DNA of 64,000 nt. Source: Selenomonadaceae bacterium. GTDB taxonomy: Bacteria > Bacillota > Negativicutes > Selenomonadales > Selenomonadaceae. Positions 55,558-63,546 of this stretch are shown here, in pieces; positions within the stretch are counted from its first letter, which is position 1, and each line of letters begins with the position of its first letter. Made by a program: the position numbers and the translations under genes. Under the pieces are notes generated by a model. The model made no database searches. It had not been told where the DNA came from and saw only the letters and a program-made list of their open reading frames with translations. Location: the NCBI GenBank assembly GCA_030523645.1, contig JAUNIB010000001.1, positions 372,001-436,000 of the forward strand, written 5' to 3'.

Positions 55558-56484
55558 TTAGTAGCTGCCGCCGCCACCGCCGTGGTCATCGTCGGAGGAA
55601 CTGAAGGACATTCCGCCGTCGCTGTCATCGCTGGACTTGGAACGGGGAACAACAGTAACGGTCTGGTAGAGGTAGCTGTCATTGGAAGCATAGAGATTGA
55701 AGGAGCTCTTATCGAGGTAATGGCTGGCTCCGGAAGCAGCGGCTACATTGCTCATAGCGGCAACTCTGGAGGAGCGGCGGGTGGAGGCGTACATATAGCC
55801 GATGATGAGAGCCAGGACAGCAATGATAATCTTTTCGATGGTGGTATCTACTACATCCATAGCATCGCCGGTACGATTGTAGAAGGCGGCCAGCTCACTG
55901 GCTTTTTCACCAAAGATCGAGTAAGCTTTTACAAGGTCATTGCTCTTGAGATTGGGGATAATTTCTGTACTGATATACTCTACATGTTCCTTGTTAGCTT
56001 TGTTGTCTTTGCCAAAGGCAGGCTTCATCTTCTTGTCGGTAGCGATGTACCACTTGCGGCTTTTCACATCCTGAACAAAGACGATGGCACCGTTGCCGCC
56101 GGCCTTGGCACAATTGTCGGCGAAGCTGTTGGCATAGGCACCGATTCCTTTTTCATTGAGACCCTGATTGAGAACGGTAACGGCGATGGTGGTACCGCCC
56201 TTCTTTGAAGCCTCGGCAAGAGCAGCATCGATTTTCTGAATGTCGGCACGGCTGATAGTACCGGTCCGATCGATGATGTATTTGCCGGAATTTGTCTGCT
56301 GCTGTGCAGTCTTGCTCTGCTGTTTGGCTTGCTGCTTGGGCTGTGTTTTTTGTTGTTTTTGCTGAGTCTGCTGATTCTGAGCGGCGAAGACCATTTCCGG
56401 AGAAAGGGCAGCGGCAGAGAAAAGAGCAGAAACGGAGAAAGCAAAAGCCAAGAGGAGCGAATATAATTTATTTGTTTTCATCAT
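55558..56484 (-). CDS. TPM-domain membrane protein, YdjH/YgcG-like
   Basis: A 308-aa protein. A signal peptide is followed by a Gln-rich linker (NQQTQQKQQKTQPKQQAKQQ). The TPM domain spans about residues 70-200 (IIDRTGTISRADIQKIDAAL; GGNGAIVFVQDVKSRKWYIA). A membrane helix (IIIAVLALIIGYMYA) and a Ser/Asp then Gly-rich tail ending DDDHGGGGGSY follow. This matches B. subtilis YdjH in layout. It follows the zinc-ribbon gene by 10 bp. Confidence 0.88.
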   Translation of the reverse strand: MMKTNKLYSLLLAFAFSVSALFSAAALSPEMVFAAQNQQTQQKQQKTQPKQQAKQQSKTAQQQTNSGKYIIDRTGTISRADIQKIDAALAEASKKGGTTIAVTVLNQGLNEKGIGAYANSFADNCAKAGGNGAIVFVQDVKSRKWYIATDKKMKPAFGKDNKANKEHVEYISTEIIPNLKSNDLVKAYSIFGEKASELAAFYNRTGDAMDVVDTTIEKIIIAVLALIIGYMYASTRRSSRVAAMSNVAAASGASHYLDKSSFNLYASNDSYLYQTVTVVPRSKSSDDSDGGMSFSSSDDDHGGGGGSY

Positions 56485-56494
56485 TCATTCCTCC

Positions 56495-57613
56495 TTAAAT
56501 AAAACCAATCATCCAGGCAATAGCACCTGCAACAACACCGGAAGCGACTGTACCGATGATGAAATCCTTGCGGAAGAAGGAAGCCTTCTTATCCTCATCG
56601 GTAGGAAGGGAACCAACCATCTTGCCGGTCTGACCGTTCATCATAAAGGTGTAGGGCTTGTCCTGATAGCGGGTGGTGAGAATCCATACAGGTACCATAG
56701 CATAGGAGATGGTACCGTTTTCTTTTATGACGAAATGATTCTCTTCTTCACAGGAGTCCCAGCCGCTGGCGGTATCATTGAGCATATCACAGCAGGTATT
56801 CTCAATGCGCTCGTTGATGCGCGGCTCAACGGATTCGGCAGATACATCGTACTTATCAGCCAGATAGCCTGCCATATACTGTGAGCTGAAGGGTACCATC
56901 TCACTGTAGTCAAACGGCTCGATGCTGTCCATATATTCGTCCTGCATACGGTTGGAACCATCGGCAGGAACTCGCTCAAAGGCCATGGTAGCGGAGCGGT
57001 CGAGACGGTAGTGGCTGGTGGTGGTGATGATTTCATCGCTGGTGGTCACTACTGCGTCACTGGTGGCATTGTAGACAGCAGAAGCATTGGCAGTGGTATC
57101 AAAGAGCCAGAAGGGGACGAACATACCCTGAATGTCCTCAACGCGGTTGTTGGCTGTAAAGGCATCAGGCAGGAGGTCCTTGCCGTTGTAGAACTCTTTC
57201 AGCTTCGCGACAGCATCCTTCTTCGTGAGCTTGAAGGGGATGATAAAGTCGGGGCGGATATCACCGGCAAAGCGACCGGGGAGCATTGTCGGATTACCGC
57301 AGTAGCAGCATTCGGTTGCCATAGTGTTATCATCGGCAACAAGTTCAGCACCGCAAGAGGAGCAGGTGAATACCCGCATTGCGTCAATTTCGTCCTGACT
57401 GTACTCGCCGCTGCTGGCGCGTCTTTCCCATTTTGCATCCTCGGCTGCCTGCTGCTTGGCGGCGTCTTCTTCCTTCTTGGAAAAGAGCTGCTCGATTACA
57501 TCGGCTTCAAATTCTGTGCCGCAGTATTCGCAGGTTACTTTTCCGTTTTTCGGGGTGAAGGCAAGCGGCGCGTCACAGGAGGGGCATTTGTAGCTTACTG
57601 CTGTTGAGGCCAT
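56495..57613 (-). CDS. Zinc-ribbon membrane protein, YdjG-like
   Basis: A 372-aa protein. Two zinc ribbons open it: YKCPSCDAPLAFTPKNGKVT with CEYCG, and FTCSSCGAELV with ECCYCG. A mixed soluble domain follows (IIPFKLTKKDAVAKLKEFYN; GMFVPFWLFDTTA), and a C-terminal membrane helix (IIGTVASGVVAGAIAWMIGF). This is the layout of B. subtilis YdjG, which acts with YdjH and the SPFH protein YdjI at the membrane. It lies between genes for those two partners. Confidence 0.88.
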   Translation of the reverse strand: MASTAVSYKCPSCDAPLAFTPKNGKVTCEYCGTEFEADVIEQLFSKKEEDAAKQQAAEDAKWERRASSGEYSQDEIDAMRVFTCSSCGAELVADDNTMATECCYCGNPTMLPGRFAGDIRPDFIIPFKLTKKDAVAKLKEFYNGKDLLPDAFTANNRVEDIQGMFVPFWLFDTTANASAVYNATSDAVVTTSDEIITTTSHYRLDRSATMAFERVPADGSNRMQDEYMDSIEPFDYSEMVPFSSQYMAGYLADKYDVSAESVEPRINERIENTCCDMLNDTASGWDSCEEENHFVIKENGTISYAMVPVWILTTRYQDKPYTFMMNGQTGKMVGSLPTDEDKKASFFRKDFIIGTVASGVVAGAIAWMIGFI

Positions 57614-57697
57614 AGATTCATCTCCTAAAAATCATAATAAAAAATCTGGAGGAGGGCAGAAGCCCGCCCCCAGATTTTAAGGAACTAATTAGTATAC

Positions 57698-59107
57698 TTA
57701 TTTTACCTGGTCGTTCTCATCGAATTTATCACCGCACTGGGGGCAGAACTTGGGCGGATTCTTGGGATCCTCCGGCTGCCAGCCGCACTTGTCACAGCGA
57801 TAGAGAGGAGCTTCGGCCGGTTTCGGGCTGCCGCAGTTGGGGCAGAATTTACCCTGGTTTACCTGACCGCAGGTGCAGGTCCAGCCTTGGGGCTGGGGAG
57901 CCGGCTTCGGGGTTCCGCAGTTGACGCAGAACTTACCCTGATTTGTCTGACCGCAGGAGCAGGTCCAGGCGTCGCCTGCCGGAGCGGCGGGAGCTGCAGG
58001 AGCTGCAGGAGCCGGCTGAGGAGCCTGCTGCTGCGGCATCATTTGCTGGTTCATCATCTGCTGCTGCTGAGCCATGCCGAAGAGTGCAGAGGCATTATTC
58101 ATGCCGTTGGCAGCGGCCATGTTCATGCCCATGAAGCCCATCATGGGACCCATGCCGCCGGACTCGTTAGCGGCAGCGGTATTCATTGCCTTGACGGTGC
58201 CGCCTGCGAAGTGAGCTGCAGCCAGGCTGGGATCCTTCAGACCGTAGTTGAGCTGACGCTCGTTGAGATCCTTAATGAGCGGAGCGTATTCATCGGTAAC
58301 CTTGACGCTGCTGACATTGAATTCAACGATTTCAATGCCGCGCATGTCGCGCCAGTCTCTGCTGAGGACATCGTTAAGAGCTTCACGGACTTCTCTTGTA
58401 TGAGCCGGAATCTGGCTGTAGCGGATATCCTGTGCAGAAACCTGAGCAAAGGCATCCTGCAGAGAGGAAAGAACGCTGGACTTCAGCTGGCTGTCAATAT
58501 TATCGCGAGTGTACTCATCGGTTACATTGGCTGCAATGTTGTTATAGAAGAGAATGGGGTTAGTGATACGGTAGCTGTATTCGCCGAAGCAGCGAAGCTC
58601 GATGTCCAGATCAACATCCAGCTTCTTGTCGCAGATGTGGAAGGGGATACCGGAGGGGGTGCCATACTTGTTGCCCATTATCTCCTTGGTATTGATATAG
58701 TAGACACGCTGATCCTTGCCGGGGTCACCGCCGAAGGTGAAGCGCTTGCCCATCTGCTTGAAGACGGCAACGACATTTTCCTTCAGGTCGCCGAGACCCT
58801 GACTGTTCATGATAGACGGCTCCGTGGAGGCGTCATAGGTGTAGCGGCCTTCCTCGGCGCATACATCGACGACCTTGCCGTCCTCGACGATTATCATGCA
58901 CTGGCCGGCATTGACAGCGATGCCGCTGCCGCTGGAAATGATATTGTCTTCGGCAGAGGTATTGGAGCTGCGGCCCATGGAGGAGACGCGCTTCTTACCT
59001 TTGGTAATGAGGACATCGGCAGGTATAGAGTCGCAGTAGATAAACTCTTTCCACTGGTCGGCCATTACGCCGCCGAATGCGCCTTTTGCTGCTTGAATGA
59101 GACCCAT
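57698..59107 (-). CDS. SPFH-domain protein with zinc ribbons, YdjI-like
   Basis: A 469-aa protein. Residues 1-300 are the SPFH/'virion core' domain (MGLIQAAKGAFGGVMADQWK; IPFHICDKKLDVDLDIELRC; DMRGIEIVEFNVSSVKVTDE). A Met/Gln/Pro/Ala-rich linker follows (QQMMNQQMMPQQQAPQPAPA). The C-terminus has three CxC/CxxC zinc ribbons (WTCSCGQTNQGKFCVNCG twice in near-copy, then YRCDKCGWQPEDPKNPPKFC). B. subtilis YdjI has the same core and links PspA to the membrane. No pspA is adjacent here. It is first of a three-gene minus-strand operon. Confidence 0.9.
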   Translation of the reverse strand: MGLIQAAKGAFGGVMADQWKEFIYCDSIPADVLITKGKKRVSSMGRSSNTSAEDNIISSGSGIAVNAGQCMIIVEDGKVVDVCAEEGRYTYDASTEPSIMNSQGLGDLKENVVAVFKQMGKRFTFGGDPGKDQRVYYINTKEIMGNKYGTPSGIPFHICDKKLDVDLDIELRCFGEYSYRITNPILFYNNIAANVTDEYTRDNIDSQLKSSVLSSLQDAFAQVSAQDIRYSQIPAHTREVREALNDVLSRDWRDMRGIEIVEFNVSSVKVTDEYAPLIKDLNERQLNYGLKDPSLAAAHFAGGTVKAMNTAAANESGGMGPMMGFMGMNMAAANGMNNASALFGMAQQQQMMNQQMMPQQQAPQPAPAAPAAPAAPAGDAWTCSCGQTNQGKFCVNCGTPKPAPQPQGWTCTCGQVNQGKFCPNCGSPKPAEAPLYRCDKCGWQPEDPKNPPKFCPQCGDKFDENDQVK

Positions 59108-60028: not shown

Positions 60029-60207
60029 TGTTAAACCTCGTTTCATACAAGTAATTTATGGTTAAATTATATCAAAAAAATTTCCTGTTCGCTATTGAAA
60101 TTTTGACTCTGTTGCGGTATCATAACTCAAATATACACAGAGGGAATTATGCAGTTGTCCCTTTATGAAGAGAACGAGATTATAATTAGAGAAAAGAGGG
60201 ATTTTTG

Positions 60208-61710
60208 GTGGCTTTCTACTATTCTGAGCCTTCGCACACTTTTGGTGAATATTTGCTTGTCCCGGGTTACTCTTCTGATCAGTGCATTCCTACGAATGTA
60301 TCTCTCAAGACTCCCCTTTGCCGCTACAAGCGCGGTGAAGAGCCGAGACTTTCTATGAATATCCCGATGATGTCCGCTATCATGCAGGCCGTATCTGATG
60401 ATAAGCTGGCTGTTGCTCTCGCTCGCGAGGGCGGTATTTCCTTCCTCTACGGCTCTCAGACCGCTGAGGATCAGGCTGCTATGGTTCGCCGGGTCAAGAG
60501 CTACAAGGCCGGCTTCGTAAGCAGCGATGCAAACCTTACCGTAGATATGACTCTCGCTCAGGTTCTTGAGATGAAGGAGAAGACCGGTCATTCCACTATG
60601 GCTGTTACCGAAGACGGTACCGCCAACGGCAAGCTCCTCGGTGTTGTTACCAGCCGTGACTATCGCGTCACCCGTATGTCTCCTAACACTCCGGTCAAGG
60701 AGTTCATGACTCCCTTTGAGCGTCTCGTATATGCTGATGAGAACACTACTCTCGGTGAAGCAAACGATCTCATCTGGGACAACAAGCTGGATATGATTCC
60801 TATCATTGATAAGAATCAGTGCCTGAAATACATGGTATTCCGCAAGGACTATACCACCAAGAAAGAAAACGCTATGGAGCTTACCGACAGCAGCAAGCGC
60901 TACTGCGTAGGTGCCGGTATCAATACCCGCGACTATGCTGAGCGTGTACCGAAGCTGCTGGATGCCGGTGTAGATGCTCTCTGCATCGATTCCTCCGAAG
61001 GCTTCTCCGAGTGGCAGCGAATCACCCTGAAATATATCCATGAGAATTTCGGCAATGATGTAATCGTCGGTGCCGGTAATGTTGTAGATAAGGAAGGCTT
61101 CCGCTTCCTGGCTGAGGCCGGCGCAGACTTCATCAAGGTCGGTATCGGCGGCGGCTCCATCTGCATCACCCGTGAGACCAAGGGTATCGGTCGCGGTCAG
61201 GCAACCAGCGTAATCGAGGTTGCTCAGGCTCGCGACGAGTATTTCAAGGAAACCGGTATCTATGTACCTATCGTTTCCGACGGCGGTATCGTCCATGACT
61301 ATCACATCACTCTGGCTCTCGCCATGGGTGCTGACTCCATGATGCTTGGCCGCTACTTCTCCCGCTTCGATGAGTCTCCTTCCGATAAGGTAAAGATTAA
61401 CGGTACCTTCTACAAGGAGTACTGGGGTGAAGGCTCCAACCGTGCCCGCAACTGGCAGCGCTATGATCTGGGCGGCGCTCAGAAGCTCTCCTTTGAGGAA
61501 GGTGTAGATTCCTATGTTCCTTACGCCGGCCCGCTGAAGGACAATGTTGCTATCACTCTGGCTAAGGTTCGTTCCACTATGTGCAACTGCGGTGCTCTGA
61601 ATATCAAGGAGCTGCAGGAGAAAGCAAAGCTCACTCTCGTATCTTCTGTATCCATCGTCGAAGGCGGCAGCCACGATGTTATTCTTCGTGACAAGTTCAC
61701 CGGTCGCTGA
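60208..61710 (+). CDS. guaB: IMP dehydrogenase
   Basis: Catalyses the NAD-linked step from IMP to XMP in GTP synthesis. The 500-aa protein has a (beta/alpha)8 barrel interrupted by two CBS domains (about residues 95-220). The catalytic loop is [20 protein letters not shown] with the active-site Cys; it differs from the common GxGSICTTR. The segments [20 protein letters not shown] and [20 protein letters not shown] are intact. The GTG at 60208 is 7 nt from AGAGGG; a TTG one codon earlier is also possible. Monocistronic. Confidence 0.93.
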
Positions 61711-61728: not shown

Positions 61729-61759
61729 AACCGCGGCAGCTAAGGCTGCCGCGGTTTTT
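61729..61759 (+). terminator. Terminator after guaB
   Basis: A perfect 12-bp stem AACCGCGGCAGC/GCTGCCGCGGTT with loop TAAG and T5; the convergent gene 61783 could also use it. Confidence 0.95.
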
Positions 61760-61782: not shown

Positions 61783-62601
61783 TTAACTGTTTTCAAGTAT
61801 TGATTTCTTCAGCTTTTCACTGAGGGCAGCGATATTGTCAGGGACTATTCTCAGGTCATAGCCTACGAAAAGTGGGCTGGTAGGGTGACGGGGCATAATC
61901 CTGACCGCCAGTTGATTGCTTTTTTTCAAATAGTAGAAAAACAGGTTGTAGCTAGGGTTTTCCCGCCAGTCTATATTCAGCAGGAGGCGAACTACATGCT
62001 GAATAAGGTCGGCAAGGGTATCAACTGTCTGTTCACTCAGCGGGTAAGTATCCGAGGTGATGGTGAACTCACCGAAACCGAGGCGGGGAAAGGCTGAAGC
62101 CGTCAGCTGAAGCCCGTCCTTTGTGACGATGGGATTATCCGCGGGGAGAAAATTTTCCGCCTCGTAGAGAGTCTCCGGCTCAATATCGTAGAAGCCGATA
62201 ATCTGCATGTGAGGGTGTCTGATAGTTCCCCCGGAGAGGGGCCCGTGATTCTTGAAAAAAATTACCGATTTGTAGTCCGGGTTATTCAGCATCCGATGGA
62301 AATGACGGAGTGCCAGACGGAAAAGACGATGAAGCTTTTCCGGACTGTACTGTTCGATGCCGTCATCACAGCGGCTGCTCTCTACCAGGACGAACTGTTC
62401 CGCATCGGTGAGAACATTGTATTTGTTTTTTAGAAATATGATGTCTCCGTCAGTCTCTATAATGTCCGTCAGCGATTCAGGATGACAAAAGGGACACTCA
62501 CTGCGGCCGGTGACAAGGGTCTCCGGTTTGTTTTTTCCGATGGCGGTGGAGAAGCGGACTGCCTTCGGAGAAGTCAGAGCTGATTTAGACGGTGTATTCA
62601 T
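61783..62601 (-). CDS. GalT-like HIT-superfamily protein (DUF4931-like)
   Basis: A 272-aa protein. ECPFCHPE near residue 37 is a possible metal site, and NHGPLSGGTIRHPHMQIIGF has the HPHxQ active-site pattern of galactose-1-phosphate uridylyltransferases. Sequence otherwise follows the short DUF4931 type rather than true GalT. It probably transfers or hydrolyses a nucleotidyl group; the substrate is not known. It lies 18 bp after the PLP-fold gene on the same strand. Confidence 0.85.
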   Translation of the reverse strand: MNTPSKSALTSPKAVRFSTAIGKNKPETLVTGRSECPFCHPESLTDIIETDGDIIFLKNKYNVLTDAEQFVLVESSRCDDGIEQYSPEKLHRLFRLALRHFHRMLNNPDYKSVIFFKNHGPLSGGTIRHPHMQIIGFYDIEPETLYEAENFLPADNPIVTKDGLQLTASAFPRLGFGEFTITSDTYPLSEQTVDTLADLIQHVVRLLLNIDWRENPSYNLFFYYLKKSNQLAVRIMPRHPTSPLFVGYDLRIVPDNIAALSEKLKKSILENS

Positions 62602-62619
62602 CACAAGATTTCCTTTGAG

Positions 62620-63546
62620 TTAGTTTTTGAAGTTTGTATTAGCGAGGACTGCCTCGGAAATTTCAGTTTCCTTCGGACCGAAATGGAGCTTGGACAGCTC
62701 TGCATCAACATATTCCTGGAAAGCAGTCAGAATTTTCCTGGTGATGGGGCCGGGAGTGCCGTCGCCAATCTTGTGATTATTCAGGCGGATTACAGGCTGA
62801 ACTTCAATATCGGTAGCGGTGATGAAGGCTTCCTCAGCACCGTAGGCAAATTCCGGGGTGACACCTTTCTCTACTGCGGTGATGCCAAGCTTCGGCAGCA
62901 GCTCCTTGAGGATAATCTCACGGGTGATACCGGGGAGAATAAGGTTGTTGGCAGGGTGAGTCCAGAGGATGCCCTCGCGGTAGATGAAGAAGTTTGCGTT
63001 GGCTGCTTCGGTGATCTGATTGGTATCCTTGCGGAAGAGAACTGCATTCTGACAATGCTTGTTGAAGGCTGCCTCCATAGCGATGGCGTTGCCCATCCTG
63101 TTAAGGGTGGGAAGGTCGCAGCGAAGTCCGCGGATATCCTCCTCCAGACTGCAGGCAATGCCCTGCTCCTGAGCATCGAGGTCAATAAGGTTTTCTCTGA
63201 TGGTCATTGCAATGTGGGGGAAGCACTGAAGAGGATAATTAAGCTGCCGCTGCCACTGACCGCGGGAAATCTGAATGTAAATCTGACCAAACTCGATGCC
63301 GGAACGGTTGATAAGCTCCTGGCAGACATTAATCATATCTTCATCCGGGTCAACAATGGGGATTACCAGGTCACGCATTGATTTCGTATATCTGGCGACA
63401 TGCTGCGGCATTGCGAAAACCTTGCCGTCATAAACCGGCAGTACCTCGAAAATACCGTCGCCCATTTGGAAGGCACGATCCTCGATGTGAACGAGACCGT
63501 CTCCTTTTTCATAAAATTCGCCGTCGTAGTAAAAGAGTTCCTGCAT
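62620..63546 (-). CDS. Class IV aminotransferase-fold protein lacking the catalytic lysine
   Basis: A 308-aa protein of the D-amino-acid/branched-chain aminotransferase family. The family segments DRAFQMGDGIFEVLPVYDGK, ITEAANANFFIYREGILWTH and ANNLILPGITREII are clear, so the PLP-phosphate region is kept. Where D-amino-acid transaminase has CDIKSLN with the Schiff-base lysine, this protein has CDLPTLNRMGN: a proline replaces the lysine. The DNA there reads GAC CTT CCC ACC CTT AAC. Normal transamination is therefore doubtful. Starts at ATG 63546 with a GGAGG site; the GalT-like gene follows. Confidence 0.88.
   Translation of the reverse strand: MQELFYYDGEFYEKGDGLVHIEDRAFQMGDGIFEVLPVYDGKVFAMPQHVARYTKSMRDLVIPIVDPDEDMINVCQELINRSGIEFGQIYIQISRGQWQRQLNYPLQCFPHIAMTIRENLIDLDAQEQGIACSLEEDIRGLRCDLPTLNRMGNAIAMEAAFNKHCQNAVLFRKDTNQITEAANANFFIYREGILWTHPANNLILPGITREIILKELLPKLGITAVEKGVTPEFAYGAEEAFITATDIEVQPVIRLNNHKIGDGTPGPITRKILTAFQEYVDAELSKLHFGPKETEISEAVLANTNFKN

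Follow-up and report, generated by a model that had tools for sequence, protein, structure and literature searches.

Whether a protein of the B6 fold can work as an ordinary PLP enzyme depends on its catalytic lysine. A reference for the protein described here is PDB 1daa, the D-amino-acid transaminase (DAAT) of Bacillus sp. YM-1 (EC 2.6.1.21). In fold type IV the active sites are built from both subunits of the dimer, and R98 serves the site of the neighbouring subunit. Residue roles, given throughout in YM-1 numbering, come from the study of Haliscomenobacter DAAT: E177 binds pyridine N1, R50, I204, T205 and T241 bind the phosphate, Tyr31, Arg98 and His100 form the carboxylate trap, and the O-pocket trap residues are contributed by the adjacent subunit (PMC8401098).

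Two kinds of described system resemble a transaminase without this lysine. Foldseek lists PDB 7z79, an "aminotransferase-like protein" of Variovorax paradoxus, together with 9j32, its N174K mutant. The title of 9j32 suggests another natural lysine-less class IV protein and hence a precedent: judged from the mutant's name, 7z79 shares the class IV fold and apparently has a natural Asn at the expected lysine position, although it is about 21-22% identical and lies in another branch of the superfamily. The literature search found no paper on 7z79 or 9j32, and a probe search aimed at N174 identity did not return 7z79. Dead paralogues that regulate an active partner, such as those of trypanosomatid DHS (PMC3663545) and the AdoMetDC prozyme (PMC5201418), likewise lost an ancestral catalytic residue while the gene was conserved. 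They differ in having other folds; moreover, the partner here is hypothetical, and the second lysine-less family discussed below (f15) offers no class IV partner on which such regulation could act.

A DAAT-like gene without the Schiff-base lysine

The window, meaning the whole stretch of 64,000 nucleotides analysed, comes from a 2.3 Mb genome that is 100% complete and groups with Schwartzia (Selenomonadaceae). On the minus strand at 62620..63546, an ATG-started frame encodes a lysine-less, DAAT-like fold-type-IV protein of 308 aa, in agreement with the preliminary description as to frame, strand and length, and a ribosome-binding-like GGAGG can be read upstream of the ATG. The proline that had been reported in place of the catalytic lysine is borne out by alignment and codon. 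Residues 143-149 (CDLPTLN) align locally, without gaps, with CDIKSLN of PDB 1daa and 9pxs, and the CCC codon at 63109..63111 (minus strand; ggg on the plus strand) places Pro146 at the Schiff-base Lys145 position, where a DAAT has its lysine.

The protein belongs to class IV by Pfam Aminotran_4 (PF01063), scoring 130 bits against a gathering score of 28.5. Its best NCBIfam model is TIGR01121 (D-amino-acid transaminase), where its 230.9 bits fall below the curated equivalog cut-off of 277.45 bits and leave it outside the DAAT equivalog; the lysine-bearing sister L005 reaches 315.7 bits. An AF2 model of the Schwartzia protein (pLDDT 86.7, low only in the last 21 residues) has 1g2w as its best PDB match (TM 0.96 to target, rmsd 1.4) and matches YM-1 DAAT at TM 0.95-0.96 to target. 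The model of an f15 protein (pLDDT 87.6) matches YM-1 DAAT at TM 0.92-0.93 to target; by these models both lysine-less proteins keep the fold.

Orthologues were collected from 189 genomes of the family and 381 of the class, with g7, g13, g16, g20, g29, f15 and f20 as labels for the sampled genera and families. The orthologue of the sister species, a Schwartzia sp. MAG (L058), is 96% identical and has the same residue at the site, and the lysine is absent from all 16 orthologues of one Selenomonadaceae clade of five genera, which places Pro146 beyond chance or error. The preliminary description had allowed for a single mutation with lysine in close orthologues; instead, close orthologues also lack it, and both a single mutation and an assembly error are ruled out by the sister species and the five-genus span. 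The replacing residue is Pro in two genomes (both Schwartzia), Ala in ten (10/10 of g7), Asn in two (g20, g29) and Gly in two (g13). Outside the clade, 19 Selenomonadaceae orthologues from seven genera keep the lysine. The lysine-less sequences form one clade in the tree, with support of 98/91 (99/90 once the trait column is left out); its sister is the lysine-bearing G023, and the alignment is best explained by one loss, probably in the ancestor of this clade.

It is scarcely credible that the gene is a relic under decay or a product of sequencing or assembly error. The stem leading to Schwartzia is long, with about 1.0 change per site, which would fit such a view, but the sister species is identical at the site, open reading frames span the homologous part in 16/16 lysine-less genomes, and the Schwartzia pair gives an omega of 0.016 (dN 0.021, dS 1.35), a value that is approximate since dS is near saturation. 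Omega is 0.03-0.10 in the Ala-bearing g7, compared with 0.04-0.15 in the lysine-bearing g16, and when 44 orthologous pairs, a sample of those in the two Schwartzia genomes, are ranked by pN/pS from most to least constrained, the gene comes tenth. The lysine-less proteins are therefore not decaying and are under strong purifying selection, and the clade-wide loss of a catalytic residue from a gene conserved at such a low omega is the pattern of a pseudoenzyme. Because the lysine is missing in several genera and in f15 while selection keeps the gene intact, the lysine-less protein of Schwartzia, a gut bacterium, is a real, unstudied protein.

Annotation is affected as well. Lysine-less members from g7 and g20 score 279.3 bits on TIGR01121, above the cut-off, so automatic annotation would name them transaminases. 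As standard models label some lysine-less proteins DAAT, D-amino-acid metabolism may be mispredicted in rumen and gut Negativicutes. A lone Arg occupies the Schiff-base position (CDIRTTN) in one genome only, at L027:1489-2340 (G055, family f20), and this homologue still passes the TIGR01121 cut-off with 280.4 bits. The occurrence of Lys, Pro, Ala, Asn, Gly and Arg at a single position in homologues whose folds are intact amounts to a natural experiment on the fold-type-IV site without a Schiff base.

Cofactor site and lysine-bearing paralogues

The fold-type-IV PLP anchors are all in place in the Schwartzia protein, where E177, R50, I204, T205 and T241 are identical to those of DAAT, and its carboxylate trap departs from that of DAAT, reading Phe31, Arg98 and Leu100. 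The earlier claim that the PLP-phosphate segments are kept consequently holds for R50, I204-T205 and T241, and for E177 too, but not for the Ser179-181 loop, now Ala-Asn-Ala, or for Ser240, now Ala. Overall, whole-length homology, the fold, these anchors and R98 link the protein to YM-1 DAAT, whereas the lost lysine, the TIGR01121 score and changes at Tyr31, His100, Leu149, Ser180, Ser240 and Thr242 separate the two.

Across the lysine-less Selenomonadaceae, E177, I/V204, T205, T241, R98 and mostly R50 are kept, and Y31, H100, S180, S181, S240, T242 and Lys156 are changed, the last of these being invariant in the lysine-bearing set. E177 is invariant in every aligned lysine-less sequence. R50 has become His or Gln in g13, which makes PLP binding doubtful there.

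A lysine from another position might have moved into the PLP pocket, as the preliminary description recognised. None stands at any aligned pocket position of the lysine-less clade, judged by alignment columns rather than distances, and no new invariant lysine was seen at these positions. The conserved lysine columns of the clade (YM-1 40, 79, 172, 187, 223 and 267) mostly occur in lysine-bearing relatives as well, and no known pocket residue is among them. A migrated lysine is thereby ruled out by alignment.

These proteins probably represent a conserved pseudo-transaminase, a former DAAT with a rebuilt pocket that likely holds PLP, PMP or a similar ligand non-covalently. On this view the former DAAT retained its fold and the greater part of the PLP cradle, the Schiff-base lysine disappeared a single time, in the common ancestor of the Selenomonadaceae clade, and the substrate pocket was rebuilt afterwards. 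Ordinary internal-aldimine transamination would no longer be possible, PLP, PMP or a PLP-like aromatic phosphate would be bound without a covalent link, and the protein would act in ligand binding or regulation, while a lysine-bearing class IV paralogue, found in most of the same genomes, may have assumed the old activity. The aligned residues favour this reading, with anchors E177, R50, I204-T205 and T241 kept in Schwartzia and Y31, K145, H100, S180, S240 and T242 changed, and so do the well-supported clade, the purifying selection, the intact fold and the distribution of the paralogue. Against it stand the His/Gln at R50 in g13, the passage of g7 and g20 over the DAAT cut-off (279.3 vs 277.45), the absence of the paralogue from g13, and a co-occurrence that traces to one clade. 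The changed chemistry, non-covalent PLP use or non-catalytic role proposed earlier is well motivated, as neither a migrated lysine nor lysine-bearing members of the clade were found, and it remains a role that we infer.

Schwartzia has two lysine-bearing class IV paralogues with the motif CNIKTLN, L002 (G000:C9:681294-682016) and L003 (G000:C8:99538-100332), of which L003 does not reach the DAAT equivalog cut-off. Paralogues of the L003 type, counted at an identity to L003 of at least 45%, mostly read CNIKTLN and have the lysine in 31/31 loci read. They occur in 12 of the 16 lysine-less genomes and in none of the 19 genomes with a lysine-bearing orthologue (Fisher p 2e-6 by genome, 0.010 by genus), but since the lysine-less genera form one clade, the correlation stems from few events, not many independent ones. 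The four lysine-less genomes without it comprise two that are 69% and 77% complete and two of g13, in which only a branched-chain type class IV paralogue remains.

This distribution fits a takeover of activity, suggesting that the L003-type paralogue assumed the old function, and it also permits a heterodimer. A catalytically dead subunit pairing, in the manner of a prozyme, with a lysine-bearing class IV paralogue and regulating it would accord with the paralogue's co-occurrence with lysine-less rather than lysine-bearing orthologues, with R98 being kept in 16/16 sequences and with O-pocket trap residues coming from the adjacent subunit (PMC8401098). We consider such pairing improbable: g13 lacks the L003-type paralogue and f15 has no other class IV protein, both of which speak against a heterodimer as a general rule, and the Schwartzia gene is unlinked to its paralogues, since L003 sits on contig C8 and L002, on C9, is separated from the gene by about 250 kb.

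A second lysine-less family in Negativicutes

In f15, a second Negativicutes family, Asn takes the lysine position in 22/22 distinct sequences from 14 genera (loci L127-L128, L133-L148, L158-L160 and L029) and is among the invariant alignment columns. A PF01063 search of ten f15 genomes, nine of which were read at the lysine site, found exactly one class IV protein per genome in all ten, at the orthologue's place. The f15 and Selenomonadaceae lysine-less groups are set apart by supported branches in the tree, and a single lysine-less clade of both families is weakly rejected, with a marginal AU p of 0.045; on these two grounds, one origin was set aside. The loss in f15 is a second, separate one.

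The f15 cofactor site has changed further, with R50 mostly Asn (16/22), T241 mostly Pro (20/22), R98 mostly Tyr and L201 mostly His. It is thus largely dismantled, although E177 is invariant there despite these changes. A non-PLP scaffold or moonlighting protein that binds no B6 vitamer would account for the lost phosphate Arg and T241 of f15 and for the lost R50 of g13. However, the pyridine-nitrogen binder E177 persists in every aligned lysine-less sequence and Schwartzia, g7, g20 and g29 still have the phosphate residues, so that such a scaffold seems a doubtful account.

The invariant Asn also bears on continued catalysis, in which PLP would be bound non-covalently, another residue or the substrate would transfer the proton, and the chemistry would be slow or different (lyase, racemase or half-transamination). 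Retention of E177, R50, T205 and T241 in most Selenomonadaceae members, an Asn that never varies in f15, where the protein is the sole class IV member in the genomes searched, and the apparent study of a natural Asn-for-Lys class IV protein in PDB 7z79 and 9j32 (mutant N174K) all agree with activity of this kind. It is nevertheless unlikely: in Selenomonadaceae Pro, Ala, Asn and Gly all replace the lysine, a variation not expected of a catalytic residue, most members have lost Tyr31 and His100, and f15 has also lost R50 and T241.

Schwartzia and f15 share the changes Tyr31 to Phe, His100 to Leu and Leu149 to Arg, and three of their four identical changes are at O-pocket residues. The number of identical changes between them is not above background: of 10 sites changed in both, 4 changed identically, and other pairs give similar figures. 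It is quite conceivable, if somewhat speculative, that two Negativicutes lineages separately turned the same DAAT into a lysine-less protein whose new function is under selection, that they took partly the same route, and that the fold-type-IV site thereby gained a naturally evolved role without a Schiff base.

Gene neighbourhood

A DUF4931 (GalT/HIT-like) protein of 273 aa is encoded at 61783..62604 on the minus strand (PF16285, E 3.5e-49; PF20956, E 8.3e-21), beginning 15 bp downstream of the lysine-less gene. The order is the same in the sister species L058, and the two genes likely share one transcript in Schwartzia. The preliminary description had suggested this neighbour as a functional partner, but a general link is unsupported. 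DUF4931 follows immediately downstream in the two Schwartzia genomes alone; in one more lysine-less genome it is separated by a few genes, and around the remaining lysine-less orthologues it was not found within the neighbourhoods fetched, on which basis it was rejected as a general partner. Most other Selenomonadaceae, lysine-less or lysine-bearing, have a carboxylase subunit (PYC_OADA/HMGL) as the neighbour; many of the family's orthologues also have a DUF711 protein close by, frequently accompanied by a small protein that looks ACT-like by eye. Lysine-bearing relatives have these neighbourhoods too, so the arrangement is older than the loss of the lysine and gives no clue to the new role. 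Next after the lysine-less gene of f15 there is often a membrane protein (cluster 6), about 167 aa long, for which neither Pfam nor NCBIfam gave a match.

Between the convergent IMPDH-like and DUF4931 genes, a GC-rich hairpin of 12 pairs at 61729..61756 (no strand assigned) resembles a terminator by consensus match only. Long frames overlap on both strands at 60163-61710 of the window, with 501 aa on the plus strand and 503 aa on the minus strand; the former reads as IMP dehydrogenase, so the latter is probably spurious. Further away, at 55558-59107 on the minus strand, three adjoining frames appear by eye to encode a TPM-domain protein, a zinc-ribbon protein and an SPFH-like protein with C-terminal zinc ribbons.
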